Assembly: GCA_002898535.1 (NCBI GenBank)
Contig: BEHN01000004.1
Coordinates: 1-64,000 of the forward strand
From: a bacterium HR11
GTDB taxonomy: Bacteria > Acidobacteriota > HRBIN11
Direction of reading: 5' to 3'
Length of the DNA: 64,000 nt
Both the position numbers and the translations under genes were made by a program. The notes under the pieces are model-generated. The model was not told the origin of the DNA. It was given only the letters and a program-made list of their open reading frames with translations, and made no database searches. Shown in pieces: positions 6,720 through 23,860 of the stretch; positions within the stretch are counted from its first letter, which is position 1, and every line of letters begins with the position of its first letter.

Positions 6720-9059
6720 TCAGAGGGCCAGACGGAGCCATATCCGGCGCCACCGGTAGTCCAGCCGCCAGAGGCCGAACGCCCGGGCATACCGCAGGGC
6801 CGTCTCGTACTCCTCCGGCGTGATGGGTCGGTTCAGCTCGGGATAGCGGGTCTCGTTGACCATCCCGGCCGGATGGTACTGGTCCATGATGTTGACGTAC
6901 GTGTCCCGACCGAGGTTTTCGGCGATCCACCGGAGGATCTCCCGGGTGTCGTCCAGCGCCCCCGGCATGACCAGATGCCGGACGAGGACGCCCCGGAGGG
7001 CGAGGCCGTTTTCGTCGAAGACCAAGTCTCCGACCTGGCGATGCATCTCGAGGATGGCCCGACGGGCGGCCTCGGGGTAGTCCTCGGCCTTCAGGTACTT
7101 GCGGGCCTTGGCGGGGTCCCAGTACTTGAAGTCGGGCATGTAGATGTCGACGAGGCCGTCCATGAGGGCGAGGCTTTCGAGGCTGTCGTAGGCGCTGGTG
7201 TTGTAGACGATGGGGAGGCGGAGGCCCCGCTCGATGGCGATGGGCAGGGCCTCGACGATCTGGGGGACGACGTGCTCGGGGGTCACGAGGTTGATGTTGT
7301 GACAGCCCCGGGCCTGGAGCTCCAGCATCATCTCGGCGAGCCGCTCGGGCGGCGTCGGGACGCAGCCGATATTTAATCGGCTAATATCGAAATTTTGGCA
7401 ATTGGCCACTGCAATGAATGGAGCCGTATAGGAGTGGTCCGGGTCATCGACCTCCAGGTTGAAGACCCAGCCGCTGTAAGGTCGGCGCCCGACCTTATGG
7501 ACGGGGACGAGGAAGTAGGCCCCGCAGTCCTTCCACTTCGTACGCCGTCGAGGACCCTTCGGGAATTTCACATAGAACAGGGGGGATTGACGGACTTCCC
7601 GCCCCTCTAAGACCTTTCGGGGTGGGGCCTGCCGTCGATGGTAGGAAGGCAACATCCCTAAACGGAGACCCAGCTCAAAGAGCCCGACGGCCAGTCCCTC
7701 AGACACCGTGTTCACGGCATAATGTCGGCCTTGGTCATACCCATCCCCGTCGATGACGCCTTGGAGGAATGCCCGCAGGACCGGGGGGCGGGCCTGGAAG
7801 AGAGGCGCCGGGACCCGCTTGGTATAGGCATTCGACCCACACAATTCCCGAAAGAATAAGGCCAGAGAGGCCTTTCCGACCTCGACCGTCACCGTCGTCC
7901 GTCGCCACCGCACCTGGGGCGCGACGCCGAACACCCGCCGCAATTCACTCGCGACCCGGTCTGCCAGGGCGGACTCGTGGTGCCCGAAGGAAAAAACGAC
8001 GCGATACGAGTTGGGCCGACTCCGGACGGCCGTCACATGCCCTTCCGCACAGTAAATCCCCAGGAGCCATGCCAACGATTCATCCAGCGGTAGCCGGGCG
8101 GGAATGCCGGGACGCCGTTCGGTCTTAAAGCGGACCCTCTCGCCTTCTGGGACCAGGGTATTGGCCTGGTGCTCGTCCGTAGACCAGGTCCCCCCGTTGG
8201 GCCACAGGCCGCGGAGTTTGCGAATGTAAGCCGGATGGTAGCCCGTCATGCCGGCCAGTTCAGCCGAAGTCCATGACTGGGCGAACAGGGGGGCCAGTTC
8301 CTGGATGGACATACGCGCGCGGCGGGGCTTGCGGAGAGACCGACCGGCGTCGGCGATGATGGCCGGGACGTCCAAAACGACGTCCCGACCTCGGACCTGT
8401 CGCTTCGGCACGATGAGGTAGTCGCCCTTGGACACGGCATCCGCCCGGATTCGGACGGGACCGTCGGAGGCGGACCCCCGTACGATGAAGAGCTCATGAT
8501 TCGGCGTCAGGCTGACCGGGGGACAATTGTAAGGTTTGATCCATACGAGTTCGCCCGCATAGGGGTGGCGGAAGGCCTTGCCGATCGGGGCGGGCGTCCC
8601 GTGGCGGGTCCAGGCGTAGAGTCGGCCGTCCACGAATCGGACGACGCCGCCGGGCCCGGGGGTTTCATCGGCGCCGGTCTCAAATATGTGGGAGATGGGG
8701 AGCGGACCTCGGTCGGTCGCCACGTAGGCCTCGGGCGGCAGGCAAAAAACGCACTTTAAATTGCATCTTCCAAAGAATATTGTTCCACTCCCCCGCCAGC
8801 CCCGAAGGACGTCCTCCTCGCCCAAGTGGGGAAAGTAGCTGGCGACGTCCGCATACCGGCCCGAAGCGCACGTCCCCAGCTGACCGTTCCAGCGGTCGAC
8901 GTCGCAGTTGCGGGGACACACCCGACACCGCCGAAGCATGGCCCGGGCTTGCTCGACCTTCTCGGCCAGGCACCCGCTCCGATAGGCCTCCATGTAAGCG
9001 GGCTCGAATTGCTTCCGCGGGCGGACGAAGCCCCTGCAAAAGTCGGGTAGCTGGGTCAT
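6720..9059 (-). CDS. PflX-like radical SAM protein interrupted by an intein
   Basis: A 779-residue precursor. The host protein (residues 1-105 plus 554-779, 331 residues) matches the PflX-type relatives of pyruvate formate-lyase activase: an N-terminal Cys cluster (CRVCPRNCDVDR, CASG), RGSGTIFFGRCNLKCVFC, then after the intein CQNFDIS, NINLVTPEH, NTSAYDS and IYMPDFKYW. The radical SAM motif CxxxCxxC is C99, C103 and, in the spliced protein, C554. These enzymes bind a 4Fe-4S cluster and cleave S-adenosylmethionine; the target of this subfamily is not known to me. A GGAGG ribosome site precedes the ATG. It converges with the TonB receptor gene. Activity should require intein splicing. Confidence 0.9.
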   Translation of the reverse strand: MTQLPDFCRGFVRPRKQFEPAYMEAYRSGCLAEKVEQARAMLRRCRVCPRNCDVDRWNGQLGTCASGRYADVASYFPHLGEEDVLRGWRGSGTIFFGRCNLKCVFCLPPEAYVATDRGPLPISHIFETGADETPGPGGVVRFVDGRLYAWTRHGTPAPIGKAFRHPYAGELVWIKPYNCPPVSLTPNHELFIVRGSASDGPVRIRADAVSKGDYLIVPKRQVRGRDVVLDVPAIIADAGRSLRKPRRARMSIQELAPLFAQSWTSAELAGMTGYHPAYIRKLRGLWPNGGTWSTDEHQANTLVPEGERVRFKTERRPGIPARLPLDESLAWLLGIYCAEGHVTAVRSRPNSYRVVFSFGHHESALADRVASELRRVFGVAPQVRWRRTTVTVEVGKASLALFFRELCGSNAYTKRVPAPLFQARPPVLRAFLQGVIDGDGYDQGRHYAVNTVSEGLAVGLFELGLRLGMLPSYHRRQAPPRKVLEGREVRQSPLFYVKFPKGPRRRTKWKDCGAYFLVPVHKVGRRPYSGWVFNLEVDDPDHSYTAPFIAVANCQNFDISRLNIGCVPTPPERLAEMMLELQARGCHNINLVTPEHVVPQIVEALPIAIERGLRLPIVYNTSAYDSLESLALMDGLVDIYMPDFKYWDPAKARKYLKAEDYPEAARRAILEMHRQVGDLVFDENGLALRGVLVRHLVMPGALDDTREILRWIAENLGRDTYVNIMDQYHPAGMVNETRYPELNRPITPEEYETALRYARAFGLWRLDYRWRRIWLRLAL
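7401..8744 (-). other. 448-residue intein with LAGLIDADG homing endonuclease
   Basis: Residues 106-553 of the radical SAM precursor. Splicing block A begins with Cys1 (CLPPEAYVATDRGPLPI). Block B has the TxxH motif TPNH (185-188). Block F is VFNLEVDDPDHSYTA. Block G ends IAVAN followed by Cys554 as the +1 residue. The penultimate residue is Ala instead of the usual His. Two LAGLIDADG motifs are present, LAWLLGIYCAEGH (329-341) and FLQGVIDGDGY (431-441), both with acidic residues, so the endonuclease may be active. Between blocks B and C, residues about 250-285 (ELAPLFAQSWTSAELAGMTG) look like a helix-turn-helix. Excision would join CNLKCVF to CQN, restoring the cluster motif. Confidence 0.93.
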
Positions 9060-9098
9060 ACCCGGTCCTCCGGCATGTCCAGCCTCTCAAGATAGCAT

Positions 9099-9130
9099 AG
9101 CCGTTCGGTTCGTGAAAACCCGTAGGATTC
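9099..9130. repeat. Fragment of the TTAA inverted-repeat element
   Basis: AGCCGTTCGGTTCGTGAAAA followed by CCCGTAGGATTC matches the reverse complement of one end of the element at 49022-49288. The match stops one base before the IS remnant that begins at 9132, so the IS insertion or a linked deletion probably cut this copy. Confidence 0.7.
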
Positions 9131-9211
9131 ACTGACCTTCAGAGATGAGTTCGGACATCCCGCCTGTCCTGTTTTATACTGGACTCCATCATCCCAAGAC
9201 AGGCGGGTCCG

Positions 9212-9599
9212 ATGGTCTCCCTTTCGAAGACCCAGGTGGAAATTCGCGGATGATCTCTTGGACCGGGCCGATGTATCGAGCCAGGCGGCCCGGATTCTCC
9301 GGGCCATTGGGGAAGCCCGTTCGCCCCGGTGGTCAGAGATGGCCCCGAGGATGCCTGGGGACCCCCAGGCCCATGATAAGACGATTCAGAGGTTTTTGGA
9401 GGAGGCGGACCCGAAGAGGGCTCTGGGGCGGCTTTTCCACGAGGAGGCCCCCTTCGTGTGGGTGGACGTGACCGAGATGCCGCGGCGGCAGGCCCGGAGG
9501 ACGGAGTCCGTGGGCCGGCTCCGGGACGGGAAAACGAGGGGGTTTTGGCTGTTGGTATGGGCGACGCCTGACCGAGGCCGGGCGATTCCCTTTTCCTTG
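9212..9599 (+). pseudogene. Truncated, frameshifted DDE transposase
   Basis: Translation from ATG 9212 gives MVSLSKTQVEIR and then a stop. Removing one G near 9249-9251 restores LLDRADVSSQAARILRAIGE, which continues to FVWVDVTEMPRRQARRTESV and GFWLLVWATPDRGRAIPF. The segment VDVTE with the following basic and aromatic motif is the first-aspartate region of IS4/IS701-like transposases. The second and third acidic regions are missing: the frame runs straight into the right terminal repeat. So there are two lesions, a one-base frameshift and loss of the C-terminal two thirds. Confidence 0.75.
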
Positions 9600-9608
9600 A
9601 ACTCATCT

Positions 9609-9736
9609 GGCTCTGTTGACATCCCTGAGCCATCGTCTCAAAGCCCCCTGCGGCGTCCATCCCATCTGAATTTTTTGGGCTTGCTTCGGCGGGCCCAGGG
9701 CCTCCCCAGAAGCCTGAAGAGGATATCAACAGAGCC
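9609..9736. mobile_element. 128-bp mini-element with IS903-like ends and 9-bp target duplication
   Basis: The ends are GGCTCTGTTGACATCC (9609-9624) and the reverse complement of GGCTCTGTTGATATCC (9721-9736), 15 of 16 matching. It is flanked by the direct repeat AACTCATCT at 9600-9608 and 9737-9745. The end sequence and 9-base duplication closely resemble the IS903 group of the IS5 family, whose ends begin GGCTTTGTTGA. No transposase is encoded. It sits inside the right terminal repeat of the older IS remnant. Confidence 0.8.
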
Positions 9737-9758
9737 AACTCATCTCTGAAGGTCAGCA

Positions 9759-9808
9759 CCCACCGACTTTGGAACAGTTACATTCGTGACTGTTCCAAAA
9801 CCGGTGGG
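9759..9808. repeat. 20-bp-stem inverted repeat
   Basis: Arms 9759-9778 and 9789-9808 pair over 20 positions with two mismatches (CCCACCGACTTTGGAACAGT against CCCACCGGTTTTGGAACAGT), leaving a 10-base loop. It begins two bases after the IS remnant ends. It could be a pair of terminal repeats left by a further deletion derivative, or a transcribed hairpin. From 9809 to 10020 there is only a degenerate 7-bp periodic tract (about 9920-9975). Confidence 0.6.
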
Positions 9809-10020
9809 GGAGAGGGCGGAAAAGCTTATCCCAGCGGACCGCGGCTCGGACCCGGGGGCGGATTCCAAGAAAAACCGCGCCAGGCCTACATATCTGACCG
9901 ATTCGCCCACCCAAAATGAAACAGTCACCACTCCATCACTTCGTCGCTCCGTCACTCCGTCACTTGCATCTTCCATCCTCCGTCCTGTACGATCATTCTT
10001 CCCCGTCGGACGTTTCGACC

Positions 10021-10422
10021 ATGCGATGGGTCGACGGGATATGCTTGACGCTGAGCGTCGTCCTCCTGGCGGCCCCGGCCTGTCCGGTCCGGCTGAACTC
10101 CCCAGGTACGCCGGACAGCGGCCTCACGGGCCGTATCTTCATCGGTCCGACCTGTCCGGGCCCCGTCCGGGCAGACGACCCCGCCTGTCAGGATAAGCCC
10201 TACTCGGCGACCGTCCGCGTCCTTACGGAAGACGACCTCCGGGAAGTCGTCCGATTCACGGCCGACGCCGAGGGCCGTTTTCGGGTACCCCTCCCGCCGG
10301 GTCGGTACCGCCTGGTCCCCGAATCCCAAGGCCGCTATCCCCGGGCCGAGCCCCAGACCGTGACCGTCCGTCCTGGGGAATGGACCTACGTGGAAATCCA
10401 CTACGACTCGGGCATCCGGTAG
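10021..10422 (+). CDS. Small secreted protein with carboxypeptidase-regulatory-like fold
   Basis: 133 residues. An N-terminal hydrophobic segment (ICLTLSVVLLAAPAC) is a signal peptide, possibly of lipoprotein type with the Cys as anchor. The rest reads as one beta-sandwich domain: GRIFIGPTCPGP, DDPACQDKPYSATVRVL, then FTADAEGRFRVPLPPGRYRL, a carboxypeptidase-regulatory-like pattern found in small exported proteins of unknown role. The frame is open upstream to 9916, but that extension is translated from periodic repeat DNA, so ATG 10021 at the signal peptide is chosen. It converges with the helicase-fusion gene. Confidence 0.7.
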   Translation: MRWVDGICLTLSVVLLAAPACPVRLNSPGTPDSGLTGRIFIGPTCPGPVRADDPACQDKPYSATVRVLTEDDLREVVRFTADAEGRFRVPLPPGRYRLVPESQGRYPRAEPQTVTVRPGEWTYVEIHYDSGIR

Positions 10423-10431
10423 GGCCTTCAA

Positions 10432-10534
10432 GCAAGATGCGGGATGCGAGATCCTGAGCCATTGGCCCGTCGGCCGACCTGCCGACTGCCCACCCGCCGG
10501 CAAGGATGCCGGCGCTCCACATCCCGCATCTTGC
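10432..10534. repeat. 103-bp element with perfect 15-bp inverted ends between convergent genes
   Basis: GCAAGATGCGGGATG (10432-10446) and CATCCCGCATCTTGC (10520-10534) are exact inverted repeats. Inside is a second hairpin, GCCGGCA-AGGA-TGCCGGC (10496-10513). It lies between the 3' ends of the small secreted-protein gene and the helicase-fusion gene, so it could fold in transcripts from either side. There is no T tract of the usual terminator kind. Confidence 0.65.
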
Positions 10535-10554
10535 ACCCGGATATCGTCACGTCG

Positions 10555-13500
10555 TCAGGCGGACGCTGACTTCGGGAGGCGGACCCGCAGGCGCTGGGCC
10601 TGCTTGGGTTGGCCGGCCCGTTCATACAGCTCGATGGCGTATTGGTACTGGCGTCGTCGAGCGAAGAACCGGGCCCCTTCGGCCAAGTACTTGGTCCGGA
10701 GGCAAAACTGGTAGGCCTTCTTAGGACCCTTCAAGTAGTAGATCCACCGGAGCATAGAGGCCCGTTCTTCCGGACTGAGCATCCGGAGGGCCCGTCTCTC
10801 GAATCCGGCCAGGGCCAAGCAGTGGGCGTTATACGGCGTGGCTGGGACGGGTCGGAAGCACGCCCGGGCCTGTTTCGACATGCGGAGGGCGAGGAAGCGC
10901 ACGCCGGCCCGTTCCCATTGCCCTTGTCGGGCCAGCGCTTCGGCTTCCTGCTGGAGTCGGCGGCGCATGGAATCATTACAGGATATGTGCATTTCCAAGA
11001 TATTTTGCAGGATATCCATCCAACCGTGGGTTTCGCAGATTTCTATCTGAACATCGACCTCCAAGAGGCCCCGGAGTCGATGAAAGACGGTATAGGCCGG
11101 TTCTTGGAGGTGGGCGGGGAGGGGTCCTTTCAGCCATTGCTCGCATTGGGCGACGACTGCCGGGGGGATCGGCATGGAGTGGGTGGGACGGGAGACGAAC
11201 GTCGGCATGATCGAGGCCAGACGGCTCAGGCACAGGAGGCCCGTCTCCATGTCCCGCACCCGCGGCCATGCGGCCTCAAGAAAATCGTACACGTACATGC
11301 CCGACTGGAACAGCCCCAGGGCCCTATCGGCATATAGGCTGGCCGCTTCAAGGATGCGGTCGGCCTGCAAGAGACAATGGATCGCCTCCTCGAGTCTTTC
11401 GTTTTCCCGGTAACACAGGGCGGCGCCGTAGTCCAGGCCGGCCTTTTTCATCTGTTGGGCCAGCCGGTCAAGTTCCGAGGAAGGGTCGGGCGTGGACCGA
11501 GCCCACCGGCGGAGGGTCCGCAAGAACTCGGTGACCTGTCGTTCGTCGGTCGGAAGCGCACGGGCCCAGGCGATGAGCGCCTGGGGAGCGTCCTGGATTT
11601 TGAGATACATCCGAGCGGCTTCGGCGTACTGCCCGCTTCTTTCATAGCACAGGGCGGCCAGGCGGTATTCCCGGAGGCGTTTCCATAAGGGGGCGGCCTC
11701 GGCATACTTTTTCAGAAGGGTGAGCCGCAAGGCGTAGGGTCCGTGGGCTCGGACTTTTGGGGGGCGCCGGGCGATGTCGCTTTCCCACGCCCGCATGCGT
11801 TCGGGGGTCCGGGCTTTGTCGTAGGACTCATAGGCGCGAAGCCATTCTTTCTTTTCTTCGTAGTACTGGCCGAAGAGGTAGGGATCGTTGATCCGTTGGA
11901 GGCAACGCAGGCGGTCCTTGTCCGCTCCGACTTGACGCCACACCCGGAGGGCATCCGTGTAAGCTTGGGCGACTTCGTAGCACCGACCGGCGTCGGCGAG
12001 GCGGCCGGCCTGTTCGTAACAGAGGGCCGCTTGGGCATACCGGCTGGCCCGTTCGTAAGCCTGGGCGGCGGTCGCCGGGTCGCCGGCCCGTTCGGCCGCC
12101 CGAGCGGCGGCTTCCCAGTGACCGGCCCGTTGCCAGTACTGGGCGGCCCGGGACCAGTCATGGCGTTCCTCAGCCCACCGGGCGAGTTCGTCGAAGCGGC
12201 CCTGTTGCTCCAGGAGGGCCGTCCGGCAGGCCATCGCCCGTTCTTCATCGCCGAGGCGGGTCCAGATTTCGAGGGCTCCGCCGTAATCGCCGGCCCGTTC
12301 CAGGCAGGCGGCCGCCGGGGGCCACGCTTCGATGGAGGTCCAGTGTTCGGCGGCCATGCGCCAGTCTTCACGCCGTTCGGCGTCCAGGGCGAGGGCCCGG
12401 TGCATGGCCTGAGGGAGCTGGGCGTTGCGGTAGCATTCGGCGGCGGCCCGGTAATGACCGTGGTCCATGAAGTAGTCGCCCTGTCGCTTCCAATCTTCCG
12501 GCGAGGACGTCCGACGCCATCGAGTGTCAAAGACGTGGAGGTCCGTCGTGACGAACACGATGTCCCGGACGGGGGGCCACCGCCAGATCGGGGCCCCTTC
12601 GGGGCCGTCGTAGACGATGAGGTCGTGGCGGGCCCGGGTGATGCCCACGTAGAGCAGGTTGATCTCGTGCTGAATATAGGCGTGGTGGAGTCGGCGGAGC
12701 GACTCGGGGTCGCCCTGGAGGATCTGCCGCCACAGGGCCTGGACCGTCGGGTCGCTACAGAACTTCCAGAGGACCACGGTATGGAATTCCAGACCCTTGG
12801 CTTCCCGGATGGTGAAGATCCGCTCAGTCCCCAGGGTCTGACGCAGGAGGTCCCGCTCGTCCGTGGTCCGGGTCAGGATCGTCTGGTCGGCGGCAAAGGC
12901 CCGGAGGTGGTCCAACAGGTCCGTCTCCCGGATGTTCTCCAGGACGAATGGGGGGTGCCCCTGGAACTTCCACTCGTCCGGGCGTTCATCGTGGGCCACG
13001 CCGATGCGTTCCTGCTTCAGGCGGAGCAGGGTGTTGGCGAGTTGCACGATACTGCCCGTATTGCGAAAGTTCAGCGACAGGTAGTGGATTTCCGGGACGG
13101 CCAGGCCCCGTTCATAGAAGAGTCGTCGGACCTCTTCCCATCGGAACCCGCTCGGGTTGATGCTCTGCTTCGTGTCGCCCGTGAGGACGATGTGAGCCGG
13201 ATTCCGCGCCAGCCGGAACAAGAAGGTCAGCTGAATTTCCGTCAGGTCCTGGACTTCGTCACAGACCACGAAGTCGTACAAGTCCGCCTCCCGAGCGGTC
13301 CGGTCCAGGGCCGTCAGGGCCGCCCGCGTGAGGTCGATTTCGTCCCAGGCCTGACGTCGTTCGAGAGCGTCCTGGTACCAGGCGGCGATGGCGTATATCG
13401 CCTTTCGGTCGGCGGCGAAGAGGGGCGCGCGTTTGCGGCTGAGGCGTTCGTACTCGGCCCACGTGAGCAGGGGCTGGTCAAACTCGGCGGCGGCCCGGGC

Positions 13501-14682
13501 GACCTCTTGGCCGATGGTGTGGAGAGCCCGGAGGAGTCGTTCCGGCTCCCGTTGGTATAACTCGGAGAGGCGTCGGATGGCCTCGGACCAGGCGAGGCCG
13601 AGCAGTCGCTGAAAGACCGGTTCGACCTTCGGGAACACACGAGTATTCGGCAGGGCGAGCAAACAGGCCTGTATCGTCTGGAGCGTTTCCGGGTCACCCG
13701 AGCCCCGGCCTAAAGCGGAGAGGGCTTCCTTCCAGCGGTCGAGGTTGAGCTGGGGTTTGGCGCCCTTGATGATGGCTCGGATCTCTTCCCAGACCAGGAT
13801 GGGGTCGTACCGTTCGGCGTCGGGGTAGCCCCGGAAGAGGCGCACGAACCGGAAGACATCGACTTCTCGGTCAGGCGGGAAACGGCGTTCGGCGTCGGGA
13901 ACCCAGCGTCGGCAGAGGTCGACAAAGGTAACGAATTCCGGGGGGACGGGGTCCACGGATCCGGTGGCCCGGCCGAGTCCCTCGTATAAGTGCCGGGTGA
14001 ATCGGTTCAGGTACGGATGATACGTGACATAAAGTTTCCGGCGTCCGTGGAGCCAGGGACTGCAGAGGTAATAGACCGTCAGCGTGGTCTTGCCGCTACC
14101 GGCCGTCCCGGCGATGAGCAGAGGCGGCCGCCGCTGGAGAAGGCTCCGCTGTTCTTCCGTCAGGTACAGATAGGGCTCGAACTCTCCCGCCTCATAGAGG
14201 AGCAGGTGACGCCACTCGTCCTCCGTCAGGACGAACCATCGTTGCGGACCGCTCTCGTAGGCCACCCGGGCTTCGATGGGCTCCTGCGTGCGATAGTCCT
14301 CCCGGAAGGCCGTGAAGTCTGCGTCCCGGTGTTCCTCCACCTGATAAGGGGTGAAGTGAAGGAAGGGGGCCAGTTCGGGCTCGATCCGACGGGCCTCCCG
14401 AACGACGGCGTCATGTTCGGCGATCGCCCACACGTAGACCAGGAGGGTTTCCGGGTCGCGAAGCGGATGCCCCAGCGTGAAGAGCAGGCGGCCGCCCCGG
14501 GAGACACGCCCCTCAAAGACGACCTTACCCGACAGTTGCTTGAGCTTTTTGACCCGTAGCCCGCCGTCCCACAGGCCACATTCGAGGAATTCAAAGACCT
14601 TGCGGAGTTGCTGACGTCGTTCCTTCGACAGTTGAAGCAGGTGCCGTTTCACCGAGTCGTTGACCAGGACGACCACACGCAT
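10555..14682 (-). CDS. RelE-like domain / SF1 (UvrD-type) helicase / TPR-like solenoid fusion
   Basis: 1375 residues in three parts. Residues 1 to about 95 look like a RelE/ParE-fold domain (VKKLKQLSGKVVFEGRV, LLVYVWAIAEHDAVVREA). About 165-720 is a superfamily 1 helicase: Walker A GTAGSGKTT (192-200), Walker B VVCDEVQDL (472-480), GDTKQSINP (502-510), NFRNT (538-542), AKGLEFHTVVL (628-638) and LLYVGITRARHDL (676-688). About 730-1375 is a long helical-repeat array (for example AAAECYRNA, AALCYEQAGRLADAGRCYE), probably for protein binding. The key helicase motifs are intact. The ribosome site GAGGGTG precedes the ATG. It stands alone, with mobile-element debris nearby. Function unknown; RNA/DNA processing or defence are possibilities. 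Confidence 0.85.
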   Translation of the reverse strand: MRVVVLVNDSVKRHLLQLSKERRQQLRKVFEFLECGLWDGGLRVKKLKQLSGKVVFEGRVSRGGRLLFTLGHPLRDPETLLVYVWAIAEHDAVVREARRIEPELAPFLHFTPYQVEEHRDADFTAFREDYRTQEPIEARVAYESGPQRWFVLTEDEWRHLLLYEAGEFEPYLYLTEEQRSLLQRRPPLLIAGTAGSGKTTLTVYYLCSPWLHGRRKLYVTYHPYLNRFTRHLYEGLGRATGSVDPVPPEFVTFVDLCRRWVPDAERRFPPDREVDVFRFVRLFRGYPDAERYDPILVWEEIRAIIKGAKPQLNLDRWKEALSALGRGSGDPETLQTIQACLLALPNTRVFPKVEPVFQRLLGLAWSEAIRRLSELYQREPERLLRALHTIGQEVARAAAEFDQPLLTWAEYERLSRKRAPLFAADRKAIYAIAAWYQDALERRQAWDEIDLTRAALTALDRTAREADLYDFVVCDEVQDLTEIQLTFLFRLARNPAHIVLTGDTKQSINPSGFRWEEVRRLFYERGLAVPEIHYLSLNFRNTGSIVQLANTLLRLKQERIGVAHDERPDEWKFQGHPPFVLENIRETDLLDHLRAFAADQTILTRTTDERDLLRQTLGTERIFTIREAKGLEFHTVVLWKFCSDPTVQALWRQILQGDPESLRRLHHAYIQHEINLLYVGITRARHDLIVYDGPEGAPIWRWPPVRDIVFVTTDLHVFDTRWRRTSSPEDWKRQGDYFMDHGHYRAAAECYRNAQLPQAMHRALALDAERREDWRMAAEHWTSIEAWPPAAACLERAGDYGGALEIWTRLGDEERAMACRTALLEQQGRFDELARWAEERHDWSRAAQYWQRAGHWEAAARAAERAGDPATAAQAYERASRYAQAALCYEQAGRLADAGRCYEVAQAYTDALRVWRQVGADKDRLRCLQRINDPYLFGQYYEEKKEWLRAYESYDKARTPERMRAWESDIARRPPKVRAHGPYALRLTLLKKYAEAAPLWKRLREYRLAALCYERSGQYAEAARMYLKIQDAPQALIAWARALPTDERQVTEFLRTLRRWARSTPDPSSELDRLAQQMKKAGLDYGAALCYRENERLEEAIHCLLQADRILEAASLYADRALGLFQSGMYVYDFLEAAWPRVRDMETGLLCLSRLASIMPTFVSRPTHSMPIPPAVVAQCEQWLKGPLPAHLQEPAYTVFHRLRGLLEVDVQIEICETHGWMDILQNILEMHISCNDSMRRRLQQEAEALARQGQWERAGVRFLALRMSKQARACFRPVPATPYNAHCLALAGFERRALRMLSPEERASMLRWIYYLKGPKKAYQFCLRTKYLAEGARFFARRRQYQYAIELYERAGQPKQAQRLRVRLPKSASA

Positions 14683-14869: not shown

Positions 14870-15676
14870 TTACCACAGGTAGAGGACGCCGCCGGCGACG
14901 ACGAACTGTTCCCCGCCACCGGCCTCGACTCGGAGCTCACCAAAAATGAGGAGTCGGGATAGGGGATACTTCACGCCGCCCAGGAAGTTGACCCCGATGT
15001 CAGTATCGGACGCCTCGAAGCCAAAAAAACCTTCGACGGAGGCATGGGCGATGTTAAGGCCCAAGCCGGCATAAGGGGTGAGGGACGTCTGACGAAGGTG
15101 GAAGTTGTAGACGAGGTTCCCATTGATCTCAAAATAGGACAGACCGCCGCCTGGGAAGAAGTAATCGAAGGTCGTTAGGAGTTCCAAATTCCGAGCGAGG
15201 CGGCGGAGATTCCAGAAAGCTCGAACGCCCAGGCCCACGTCGACGTCGTCGGCGATGCTCAGCGTGGCTCCCACACTGGCCGTCCCGGCCGTTTGGGACG
15301 CTCGAGGGGGAGGTGGAGGACCCGGCGGCCGTCGGGGGGACGGTACCGGCTCTGCCTGCGGCGGGGGAGACGGCTCTACCCGAGACGGAGGGGACGGCGA
15401 AGGCGTGGGTTTCTGAGGTTCGACAAACTCGACCAGGGAATCGGCGACAAAGCCCTCGATGTCGCCGTAGCGGACTTTCAGCCATCCGTCCCTCCGCTCC
15501 AGGACTTCCAAGGCCTGGCCTTGGGGGACCTGGGTGATGATGGGGGCGTCCTTCCGCGGAGCGGCCCGTAGGTTGGCCCGACGGACCTTCACGACGGCCT
15601 GTTCGGCCCAGGCCGTGGAGGCCACCCAAACCGCCAGGAGTCCTAAAATCCATGGGCATCCAAGGTGCCGGTGCAT
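14870..15676 (-). CDS. Exported SH3-domain protein with outer-membrane barrel
   Basis: 268 residues. Signal peptide (1-24, ending STAWA); an SH3b-type domain at about 26-85 (VRRANLRAAPRKDAPIITQV, GWLKVRYGDIEGFVADSLVE); a Pro-rich linker (about 90-130); then a predicted small beta-barrel of outer-membrane type (TPYAGLGLNIAHA, INGNLVYNFHL, GVLYLW), ending in a terminal aromatic. Bacterial SH3 domains of this sort often bind cell-wall peptides, so the protein may link the envelope layers; that is an inference. A strong GAGGAGGGG ribosome site lies just before the ATG. Confidence 0.75.
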   Translation of the reverse strand: MHRHLGCPWILGLLAVWVASTAWAEQAVVKVRRANLRAAPRKDAPIITQVPQGQALEVLERRDGWLKVRYGDIEGFVADSLVEFVEPQKPTPSPSPPSRVEPSPPPQAEPVPSPRRPPGPPPPPRASQTAGTASVGATLSIADDVDVGLGVRAFWNLRRLARNLELLTTFDYFFPGGGLSYFEINGNLVYNFHLRQTSLTPYAGLGLNIAHASVEGFFGFEASDTDIGVNFLGGVKYPLSRLLIFGELRVEAGGGEQFVVAGGVLYLW

Positions 15677-15715: not shown

Positions 15716-15930
15716 AAGATACAAGATGCAGGGCACAAGATGGAAAGAGGGTGCCGAGACCCGGGGGCCGGGTCCCCTACACAGCCGCTCAGTCAGCGAA
15801 TGGCGAATGACGAATGGTCCGGGGTCTATTTCGCGACCCCGCCCGGGCGAGCGGGGCCTGAATGAAAAATGGCCGGTCCGCCCATCGGCCCACTTGCCGA
15901 ACGCCCGGACTCCCGGATTCCCGACCCTGG
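15716..15930. repeat. Repeat-filled spacer upstream of glnA
   Basis: The 375-base gap before glnA holds a degenerate 7-bp tract (AAGATACAAGATGCAGGGCA, from about 15716), the dispersed palindrome CCCCGC...GCGGGG (15837-15856) with its conserved flank (CCTGAATGAAAAATGGCC), and an 8-bp-period tract (GCCGAACGCCCGGACTCCCG, about 15896-15925). All three types recur elsewhere in the window. No gene is seen here. The glnA promoter follows at 15992. Confidence 0.75.
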
Positions 15931-15991
15931 GCCCCGCACCCGGGACCGGAGACCGGATTTTGAAATAACTTGTCGGTTCGCGGTCTGGGGT

Positions 15992-16020
15992 TTGACAAAG
16001 CGTGGGCGCGTCGATACATT
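15992..16020 (+). promoter_or_regulatory. Sigma70-type promoter for glnA
   Basis: TTGACA (15992-15997), a 17-base spacer, then TACATT (16015-16020). A start near 16027 would give a leader of about 25 bases before ATG 16052. The -35 is consensus and the -10 has four of six matches. Confidence 0.65.
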
Positions 16021-16051
16021 GTCGAACTTCCAAAACCCGGCCGACTCGGCC

Positions 16052-17383
16052 ATGGAGTCGAACCCTATGAGCGGTGTATCCGATGCCATCGCCACTTTGC
16101 AGAAGAACGGCGTGGACGTCATCACCCTCGTCTTCACGGACGTCCTGGGACGCCTGAAGGGCTTCAATCTCAGCGTCAACGAGATCGAGCGGGCCTTCTC
16201 GGAGGGGATCGTCTTCGACGGCTCCTCCGTCGAGGGGTTCGTACGTATCGAAGAGTCCGACCTCATCGCCCGACCGGACCCGCAAGCCGTGTTTGTGGCG
16301 CCGGCCCAGGTCAGCGGCTTCAAGACGGCCTTCATCGTTTGCGACGTCCTGCGGGTCGATGGCCAGCCCTTCGAGCGGGATCCCCGGCATATCTTGAAGC
16401 GGGCCCTCGAACAGATCCAAAAGCAGGGTTACCAGTACTACGTCGGCCCCGAGCTCGAGTACTTTTACTTCGGGAGCGACTCGACGCCGACGCCGTTGGA
16501 CGACGCCGGCTACTTCGACACCCTGCCGTCCTATCGACCGACCCTGGCCCGGGAGGAGACGGTCAAGGTCCTGCGGGAGATGGGCATCGAGGTCGAGGCG
16601 TCCCACCATGAAGTCTCCCCGAGTCAGCACGAGATCGACTTTCGGTACCGGGACGCCCTGCGCATGGCCGACACGCTTCAGATCTCCAAGATGATCATCA
16701 AAGAGGTCGCCCGGAAGTACGACCTCTATGCGTCTTTCATGCCGAAGCCCATCTTCGGGATCAACGGAAGCGGCATGCACATCCACATGTCCCTGTGGCG
16801 GGGGGACGAGAATCTCTTTTACGACCCGAAGGACCCCTACCAGCTTTCGAGCCTGGCCCGGCACTTCCTGGGGGGCCTCCTGACGTACGTCAAGTACATC
16901 GCCCTCGTCACGAACCAGTGGGTCAACTCCTACAAGCGGCTCGTCGTCGGCTACGAGGCGCCGGTCTACATCTCCTGGGGCCGGTTCAACCGGTCGGCCC
17001 TCGTGCGGGTCCCGGCCTTCAAGAAGCCGGCCTCGGCCCGGCTGGAGTTCCGGGCCCCCGACCCGGGGACCAATCCCTACTTGGCCCTTGCGTGTATCCT
17101 GACGGCCGGCATGCGGGGCATCGCCGAACGCATCGACCCGCCCGAGCCGATCGAGATGGACATCTACCATATGCCCGAGGCTGACCGTCAACGGCGGAAC
17201 ATCGACACGCTCCCGGCGTCCCTGCTGGAGGCCATCGACCTGGCCTGCCAGTCGCCCATCCTGGCGGAAGCGCTCGGAGAGCCGCTGTTCGAGAAGATCG
17301 TCGAGAACAAGCGGGTCGAGTGGGACAAGTTTCGGATGGCCGTGACGGACTACGAGATTCAGACCTACTACCGGATGCTGTGA
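16052..17383 (+). CDS. glnA: Glutamine synthetase (type I)
   Basis: 443 residues, the usual length for type I enzymes. It joins ammonia to glutamate using ATP in the cytoplasm. Visible landmarks: the N-terminal DVLGRLKGFNL and DGSSVEGF; YYVGPELEYF with catalytic-site glutamates; NGSGMHIHMSLW for substrate binding; and RLEFRAPDPGTNPYLALA near the C-terminus. The tyrosine loop adenylylated in the enterobacterial enzyme is not seen; this place reads IEMDIYHMPEADR, suggesting a non-adenylylated form. Start: ATG 16052 sits just after a good promoter; ATG 16067 is also possible. The longer open frame from 15869 is repeat DNA and is rejected. Confidence 0.95.
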   Translation: MESNPMSGVSDAIATLQKNGVDVITLVFTDVLGRLKGFNLSVNEIERAFSEGIVFDGSSVEGFVRIEESDLIARPDPQAVFVAPAQVSGFKTAFIVCDVLRVDGQPFERDPRHILKRALEQIQKQGYQYYVGPELEYFYFGSDSTPTPLDDAGYFDTLPSYRPTLAREETVKVLREMGIEVEASHHEVSPSQHEIDFRYRDALRMADTLQISKMIIKEVARKYDLYASFMPKPIFGINGSGMHIHMSLWRGDENLFYDPKDPYQLSSLARHFLGGLLTYVKYIALVTNQWVNSYKRLVVGYEAPVYISWGRFNRSALVRVPAFKKPASARLEFRAPDPGTNPYLALACILTAGMRGIAERIDPPEPIEMDIYHMPEADRQRRNIDTLPASLLEAIDLACQSPILAEALGEPLFEKIVENKRVEWDKFRMAVTDYEIQTYYRML

Positions 17384-22891: not shown

Positions 22892-23704
22892 ATGGAGTCC
22901 CTGTACGTCCTGGAAGGCGTGACGTTTCGGTACCCGCGAGCCGACCGACCCACGGTCGAGGACGTTCACCTCGTCATCCCGCCGGGTCGGTTCACGGCCA
23001 TCATCGGACCGAACGGGGCCGGCAAGAGCACGCTCTTGAAGCTCCTGGGCCGCCGGCTGGAGGCGACCGAGGGGACCGTCTTTTACCGTCAGCGGCCCGT
23101 CCAGACTTATCCGGCTCGGGCGTGGGCCCAGGCCGTCGCCTGGCTCCCCCAGAGCCCCTCTATCGCTTTTCCCATCCGGGTCGACGACTTGGTCCGCCTC
23201 GGGCGGTGGCCCCGCCGCCGGACGTGGTTTGACCGGCCGCAGGACGCCGAGGTCGTCGCCCGCGTCCTGGACGTCTTAGAGATCCGTCATCTCCGGGGCC
23301 GGTGGTTTCACGAGCTGAGCGGGGGCGAACAGCAGTTGGTCCATCTGGCCCGGGCCCTGGCTCAAGAGCCGGAAACGCTCCTCCTGGACGAGCCCCTGAC
23401 GTTCCTGGACTTCCGGCATACCGTGCACGTGCTGTCCAAGCTCCGCCAGTTGGTCGCCCAGGGCCTGCACGTCATCGTCATCCTGCACGACCTCAACCTG
23501 GTCGCCCACTACGCCGATTGGGTCATCTTGCTTCACGGCGGTCGGGTCATGGCGATGGGACTGCCCGACGAGGTCCTCCAGTACAAGCACCTGAAGGCGG
23601 CCTACGAGACGGAAGTCTACGTAGACCTCAACGACCTGACGGGCCGCCTCATCATCCTGCCGATGCCGGAAGGGTGGCAGAATCCGGGAGGCCACAGACC
23701 GTAG
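22892..23704 (+). CDS. ABC transporter ATPase, FecE/BtuD-like (iron-complex/cobalamin type)
   Basis: 270 residues, a single nucleotide-binding domain. Walker A GPNGAGKSTLL (about 47-57), Q-loop WLPQSPSIAFPIRVDDLVRLGRWP (typical of the iron-siderophore/B12 subfamily), signature LSGGEQQLVHLARAL, Walker B LLLDEPLTFLD and switch His in VILHDLNLVAHYAD. It would power a periplasmic-binding-protein-dependent importer in the inner membrane. No cognate permease or binding protein lies next to it. The signature has Leu-Val-His where Arg-Val-Xaa is usual. Substrate class is inferred from subfamily pattern only. Confidence 0.85.
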   Translation: MESLYVLEGVTFRYPRADRPTVEDVHLVIPPGRFTAIIGPNGAGKSTLLKLLGRRLEATEGTVFYRQRPVQTYPARAWAQAVAWLPQSPSIAFPIRVDDLVRLGRWPRRRTWFDRPQDAEVVARVLDVLEIRHLRGRWFHELSGGEQQLVHLARALAQEPETLLLDEPLTFLDFRHTVHVLSKLRQLVAQGLHVIVILHDLNLVAHYADWVILLHGGRVMAMGLPDEVLQYKHLKAAYETEVYVDLNDLTGRLIILPMPEGWQNPGGHRP

Positions 23705-23708
23705 ACCA

Positions 23709-23860
23709 TAGCAGGTCCGTTTGGCCCGTGAAACGCCGGATGAATGCGGCTTTTCGGACCCTTCGGGGAGGACGGTTTTCGAGTATTGGGCATTGGGCAG
23801 GTAGGCAGGTGGGCAGATGGGCAGATGGGCAGGTGGGCAGGTGGGCAGGGCAGGATGCGG
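23709..23860. repeat. Diverged half copy of the TTAA element plus 8-bp periodic tract
   Basis: GAATGCGGCTTTTCGGACCC and the following bases match the reverse complement of one half of the element at 49022-49288, with many changes. It runs into GGGCAGATGGGCAGATGGGC and GGGCAGGTGGGCAGGTGGGC, an 8-bp-period tract to about 23850. The spacer 23705-23923 holds no gene. Confidence 0.65.

Follow-up and report, generated by a model that had tools for sequence, protein, structure and literature searches.

The fusion gene and its domains

We analysed a 64,000-nucleotide stretch (here called the window) of the contig BEHN01000004.1, which belongs to an Acidobacteriota metagenome-assembled genome, bacterium HR11, and focused on a long open reading frame (ORF) of the minus strand with its ATG at 14682 and its stop codon at 10555. 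The initial annotation, made from the letters alone, had read this 1375-residue product as a three-part fusion of a RelE-like toxin fold, a superfamily 1 (SF1) helicase and a long TPR-like solenoid, and both the architecture and the coordinates hold: one protein carries a RelE-like domain, a motor and a repeat arm (Table 1). A congeneric genome (contig JAUQPV010000133.1) has a full-length copy that is 91% identical, and the ratio of nonsynonymous to synonymous divergence (dN/dS) between the two copies is well below 1 throughout the gene; the gene is therefore real and under selection.

Table 1. The fusion gene, its parts and its neighbours, in positions of the window
Feature	Positions	Strand	Basis
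Complete gene (1375 aa) with RelE-like domain, 2B-less SF1A helicase and TPR solenoid	10555..14682	minus	ORF list, full-length congeneric copy
Predicted RelE/ParE-superfamily (BECR-type) domain, residues 1-105, putative active-site E57, R59, R65, H90	14368..14682	minus	hhalign, weak Pfam homologue matches, residue columns
Linker, residues ~106-170, conserved E143-x-G...W149...E154-x-EW157	14173..14367	minus	Family alignments
SF1A helicase core, residues ~171-705, no 2B domain	12568..14172	minus	Pfam, motif spacing, alignment, tree
TPR alpha-solenoid, residues ~725-1375, distal part from ~1023 divergent between congeners	10558..12510	minus	AlphaFold, Foldseek, Pfam TPR-like, mosaic analysis
SH3-domain/outer-membrane barrel protein, upstream neighbour	14870..15676	minus	Pfam, synteny
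glnA (glutamine synthetase)	15869..17383	plus	Pfam; next syntenic neighbour in both congeners

A rare and mobile family

The full domain order is shared by 14 of the proteins compared, so that the fusion is no accident of one genome. In a tree built on the motor these 14 proteins form a single clade (100/100) that excludes 16 UvrD-like sequences; some outgroup branches of this tree are long. The type of arm differs by branch, with TPRs in one and ankyrin repeats in the other; the ankyrin group is likewise a single clade (100/100), in which Cetobacterium is basal. Among 396 Acidobacteriota genomes, eight (~2%) contain the gene, six with the TPR type (two of them of the window's genus) and two with the ankyrin type. 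The other Acidobacteriota relatives showing both the N-terminal domain and the motor are at the loci L045, L046, L047, L048 and L119; at L118 only the N-terminal domain is seen, as a contig end cuts the gene. Related genomes without the fusion gene still have ordinary UvrD genes, and the family is accessory by its distribution, with no known housekeeping role emerging from its homologues.

Many relatives reside on plasmids, including those of Crinalium, Euhalothece, Thermus, Polymorphobacter, Cetobacterium, Methylosinus, Deinococcus and Paraclostridium, and the ankyrin branch occurs in 114 plasmid records of Shigella/E. coli and 10 of Piscirickettsia. The plasmid-borne family thus spans Cyanobacteria, Fusobacteriota, Clostridia, Deinococcota, Alphaproteobacteria and Shigella/E. 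coli; it is rare, sporadic and horizontally exchanged. No relative was present in the phage records searched, and the viral-contig candidates that we considered were rejected, being generic UvrD helicases or yielding nothing confirmed. We also rejected phrog_1967 as a family marker (it describes the general UvrD family and also matches 13 of 14 control genomes) and L049 (genome G221) as a member (a chance low-complexity match). The searches made of Pfam, NCBIfam and PADLOC returned no model dedicated to the family.

In the Shigella/E. coli and Piscirickettsia plasmid records the ankyrin-branch gene is nearly full-length and highly conserved, the Shigella copies being ~41% identical to the Deinococcus copy, and it is annotated merely as a UvrD-helicase, ankyrin repeat or AAA protein. 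The ankyrin-branch protein at L048 (positions 7065-11255, genome G202) has an additional C-terminal DUF1186 domain and a SEC-C motif.

The N-terminal domain

Sequence profiles give good support to the membership of the N-terminal domain in the RelE/ParE superfamily. We compared the domain profile of the TPR branch with an alignment of 15 YoeB/RelE/HigB-like proteins from Acidobacteriota genomes, which were chosen among the family search matches by readable frame and clarity (a mild selection). The two align in register with an hhalign score of 32.9 (probability 80, E-value 1.4e-5), as against a mean of 10.4 and a maximum of 19.4 for 150 column shuffles; in an earlier version of the comparison none of 200 shuffles reached the real score (0/350 in all). 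The N-terminal domain of the ankyrin branch, which can be aligned with that of the TPR branch, scores 25.0 against the toxins (shuffle maximum 18.4), and among 105-residue slices of the protein the N-terminal one alone scores against the toxin profile. The window copy's own sequence gives no Pfam toxin match, and a search of the domain profile against PDB sequences gave nothing significant; weak Pfam toxin matches fall at the same place in three homologues (HigB-like, 0.0032, at L041; YoeB, 0.0014, at L042; ParE_like, 0.12, at L046). The profile alignment, the shuffles, the slice test and these homologue matches together uphold the RelE-like assignment at the level of sequence, and the sequence profile gave no sign of an N-terminal domain unlike RelE.

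In the joint alignment, R59 and R65 occupy the columns in which RelE-type toxins have their two conserved arginines, and H90 matches a conserved histidine near the toxin C-terminus. All three are kept in every aligned TPR-type member except L045 and have equivalents in the ankyrin branch, a pattern that is compatible with an active RNase site, without being proof of one.

The helicase core

The motor belongs to the UvrD-like SF1A helicases by its Pfam matches (UvrD-helicase, 6.6e-13; UvrD_C, 7e-9) and by its motifs I, II (DExxQD), III, IV, V and VI; Walker A (motif I) lies at residues 192-200, DEVQD (motif II) at 475-479, motif IV at 537, V at 627 and VI at 678. The earlier statement that all SF1 motifs are intact is therefore correct. 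PcrA is the best PDB sequence match of the core, which also contains a family motif, LVWEEIRAIIKGA, at residues 296-308. The family has all core motifs in common with UvrD, PcrA and Rep, and differs from them in its separate clade, in the stretch from motif I to motif II (enlarged in four of the Acidobacteriota members) and in the spacing of motifs IV and V: this gap is 89 residues in the window protein and 88-93 in 14 of 14 family members, versus 266-294 in UvrD/PcrA relatives where both motifs were measurable, and we conclude that the 2B domain is missing from all 14.

The repeat arm

An AlphaFold model of the solenoid, made with the congener, is all-helical (mean pLDDT 74, ~44 short helices over 685 residues), residues ~900-1000 being poorly predicted. 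The arm has weak TPR-type matches in Pfam, and the best PDB matches of the model in Foldseek include IFT-A, Ctr9, Ski3, OGT and consensus TPR proteins. Measured on the full length their TM-scores are low, as expected when a superhelix is long and flexible and part of it is poorly predicted. The model and these matches thus favour the long run of TPR-like helical repeats (~650 residues) that had been proposed.

The synonymous divergence (dS) between the window copy and its congener is ~0.1 up to about residue 975 and 0.50 beyond residue 1030, where dN is 0.166; the neighbouring genes of the two genomes differ by a dS of 0.28-0.75. The best mosaic breakpoint lies near residue 1023; 500 permutations yielded nothing as strong. 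Given the low dS in the first part relative to the distal arm and to the neighbours, a recent exchange between lineages probably involved the N-terminal domain, the motor and the proximal arm, the distal arm having kept or gained its divergence. We rejected plain positive selection on the distal solenoid because dS is raised there too, and recombination or exchange reads better. The mosaic would fit a module with a variable recognition end; two genomes cannot show selection.

Neighbourhoods of the relatives

The fusion was always a lone gene among the loci examined. No antitoxin-like gene adjoins the window gene, as had been noted in the initial annotation, and no antitoxin or other partner recurs beside the relatives examined, unlike the arrangement of a type II toxin-antitoxin module; this lone occurrence argues for control in cis. 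A short ORF that follows the L045 gene (15627-15917 of that locus) looks HicB-like by eye and has no Pfam or PADLOC match.

Known or candidate defence genes were found close to three relatives of the TPR branch, which is no more than suggestive of a defence role. On the Crinalium plasmid pCRI9333.06, 1.6 kb from the fusion gene, there are genes (L041, 4095-7350) matching NsnA (3e-124), NsnB (7e-104) and NsnC (3.5e-123), a set that we take to be the Menshen system. The make-up of this set, with DUF262 and OLD-like genes, agrees with Menshen (PMC10952713). At the Euhalothece locus two NERD-UvrD genes stand beside the fusion gene and cas1 is within ~8 kb, and at L045 a candidate defence gene, a PDC-S01 ATPase, adjoins it. 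ParA-type partition genes adjoin the fusion gene in Crinalium and Paraclostridium, and a ParB gene is nearby in Euhalothece.

Comparison with known systems

RelE-superfamily toxins are normally restrained by a separate antitoxin. The family shares with the RelE/ParE (BECR-fold) type II toxins YoeB, RelE and HigB the in-register N-terminal profile and the columns of two arginines and a histidine; unlike them, it has this domain fused to a helicase and a solenoid and lacks an antitoxin. A 2025 survey of RelE/ParE toxins, mono- and multidomain alike, has no mention of a helicase; by its own account it excluded many multidomain proteins lacking an identifiable antitoxin (PMC11980606).

Among UvrD-like defence helicases, Gabija GajB and the helicase associated with defence reverse transcriptases (DRT) gave weak PADLOC matches (RTasHel, 2.2e-16; GajB, 1.6e-10). 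These matches are partial and cover the shared helicase core, to which the family adds its RelE-like and repeat domains, and neither GajA, the Gabija partner, nor a reverse transcriptase was found among the neighbours examined, those in the window included; the OLD-like gene near the Crinalium copy is part of the Menshen set and is not GajA. NERD-UvrD proteins (PADLOC C3a187) likewise have a nuclease-type domain N-terminal to a UvrD-like motor, but NERD is not a RelE-like domain, a long solenoid is absent, and they fall outside the family clade in the helicase tree. Eukaryotic TRANK1-type proteins likewise combine a motor of the UvrD kind with repeats of both the TPR and the ankyrin type, a resemblance that we note as a possible lead. 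A full-text literature search, with subscription journals mostly outside its reach, found no description of this fusion. All its parts come from superfamilies that are already known and its function is one that we infer, so we would not call it new in kind.

Proposed function

We favour, with a probability of roughly 45%, a cis-regulated, single-gene sensor–translocase–RNase that probably acts against phages or mobile genetic elements. The RelE-like domain would be kept inactive in cis by the remaining protein, which would stand in for an antitoxin; the helicase core would load onto DNA or RNA that has become exposed, the repeat arm would bind a trigger, for example a stalled machine or a product of a phage or plasmid, or both would happen. 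Movement driven by ATP would then uncover the RelE-like domain, which may cleave RNA, probably mRNA at ribosomes, and so stop growth. For the fusion protein, catalysis, autoinhibition, trigger and defence role are all steps that we infer. A clade whose toxin-type domain invariably comes joined to a motor and a recognition arm would illustrate how a toxin may be controlled in cis and linked to the sensing of nucleic acid or protein.

The initial annotation had suggested a sensor-effector or surveillance factor, possibly a defence one. This suggestion is strengthened, short of proof, by a distribution that is mobile and sporadic, by the conservation of toxin-site residues, by an arm that can be of either the TPR or the ankyrin type, by the mosaic distal solenoid and by the defence neighbours of three relatives; the window copy itself lies outside any defence island.

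Several observations weigh against the sensor–translocase–RNase. L045 has threonine, lysine and no histidine at the places of R59, R65 and H90, so that three of its four putative site residues are gone; position 57 is glutamate in the TPR branch and Cetobacterium, lysine in Paraclostridium and arginine in the ankyrin branch; and the canonical RelE tyrosine is missing from the TPR branch. The predicted activity may therefore be absent in some or all members. A single-sequence AlphaFold model of residues 1-178, made with no alignment, was unusable (pLDDT 41), its order of strands and helices being compatible with RelE; we discarded its Foldseek matches (acetyltransferases, NanoLuc), given the poor model. 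The distal arm has a dN/dS of ~0.33, not above 1. No defence genes are found among the neighbours of the window copy, glnA and efflux genes being close by, and what can be seen around the Cetobacterium, L046 and L118 copies, judged outside the PADLOC scan, looks ordinary. The defence neighbours elsewhere are weak evidence, because defence genes abound on plasmids in any case and ATPases of the PDC-S01 type may be common.

The losses in L045, which indicate that the domain can persist without R59, R65 and H90, and the variable position 57 would also suit a DNA-repair or replication helicase, the core being nearest by sequence to PcrA/UvrD. The RelE-like domain would then be a non-catalytic accessory that binds nucleic acid or protein (as ParE binds gyrase), and the solenoid a scaffold. 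We consider this rather unlikely, as the three residues are retained in nearly all other members, the distribution is very patchy and partly plasmid-borne, and genomes lacking the fusion have ordinary UvrD genes. The same patchiness bears on a factor for RNA or ribosome surveillance, like those of nonsense-mediated decay (NMD) or the Ski complex, with a motor that clears stalled ribosomes or RNA, a RelE-like domain that cuts A-site mRNA and a TPR arm that docks on the ribosome. RelE toxins are indeed ribosome-dependent mRNases (PMC11980606), and the modelled arm is similar to Ski3 and to further TPR scaffolds; surveillance factors are normally conserved across a phylum, whereas the fusion is in ~2% of the sampled genomes, and UvrD-like SF1A motors usually act on DNA, which makes this reading improbable. 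A plasmid-maintenance or anti-competitor system, with a lone toxin-like protein that belonged to mobile elements first and became chromosomal later, is very improbable despite the many plasmid-borne members and the nearby ParA-type and ParB genes, since no antitoxin recurs nearby and the chromosomal copies are under purifying selection.

An extended form of the sensor–translocase–RNase reading, which is bolder and which we hold to be doubtful, is that the whole family is a novel single-protein immune system, with a RelE-like RNase checked in cis by a motor without 2B and by a swappable arm that recognises invaders, and that the TRANK1-type helicase-TPR-ankyrin proteins of eukaryotes may in addition derive from this bacterial family.

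Surroundings of the gene in the window

The SH3-domain/outer-membrane ORF lies on the same strand as the fusion ORF, 187 bases from it and between it and glnA; its counterpart was not found at the matching place of the congeneric locus. Beyond glnA there are RND efflux and then ABC transporter genes. We rejected a different placement of the fusion gene in the two congeners, since glnA is the next shared neighbour in both.

The mobile-element debris reported near the gene was in part recovered: there are dispersed short intergenic repeats, and Pfam showed no transposase in those adjoining ORFs that were tested. The repeats at 9786-9928 and 23692-23854 of the window (~143 and 110-160 bases) have many copies in the congener (genome G001), at 74-92% identity. 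More short repeats surround the glnA locus, and such repeats are the sole mobile-type debris seen near the gene. At 6720-9059 of the window (minus strand), a radical SAM protein is split by an intein with matches to a LAGLIDADG homing endonuclease and to splicing domains.

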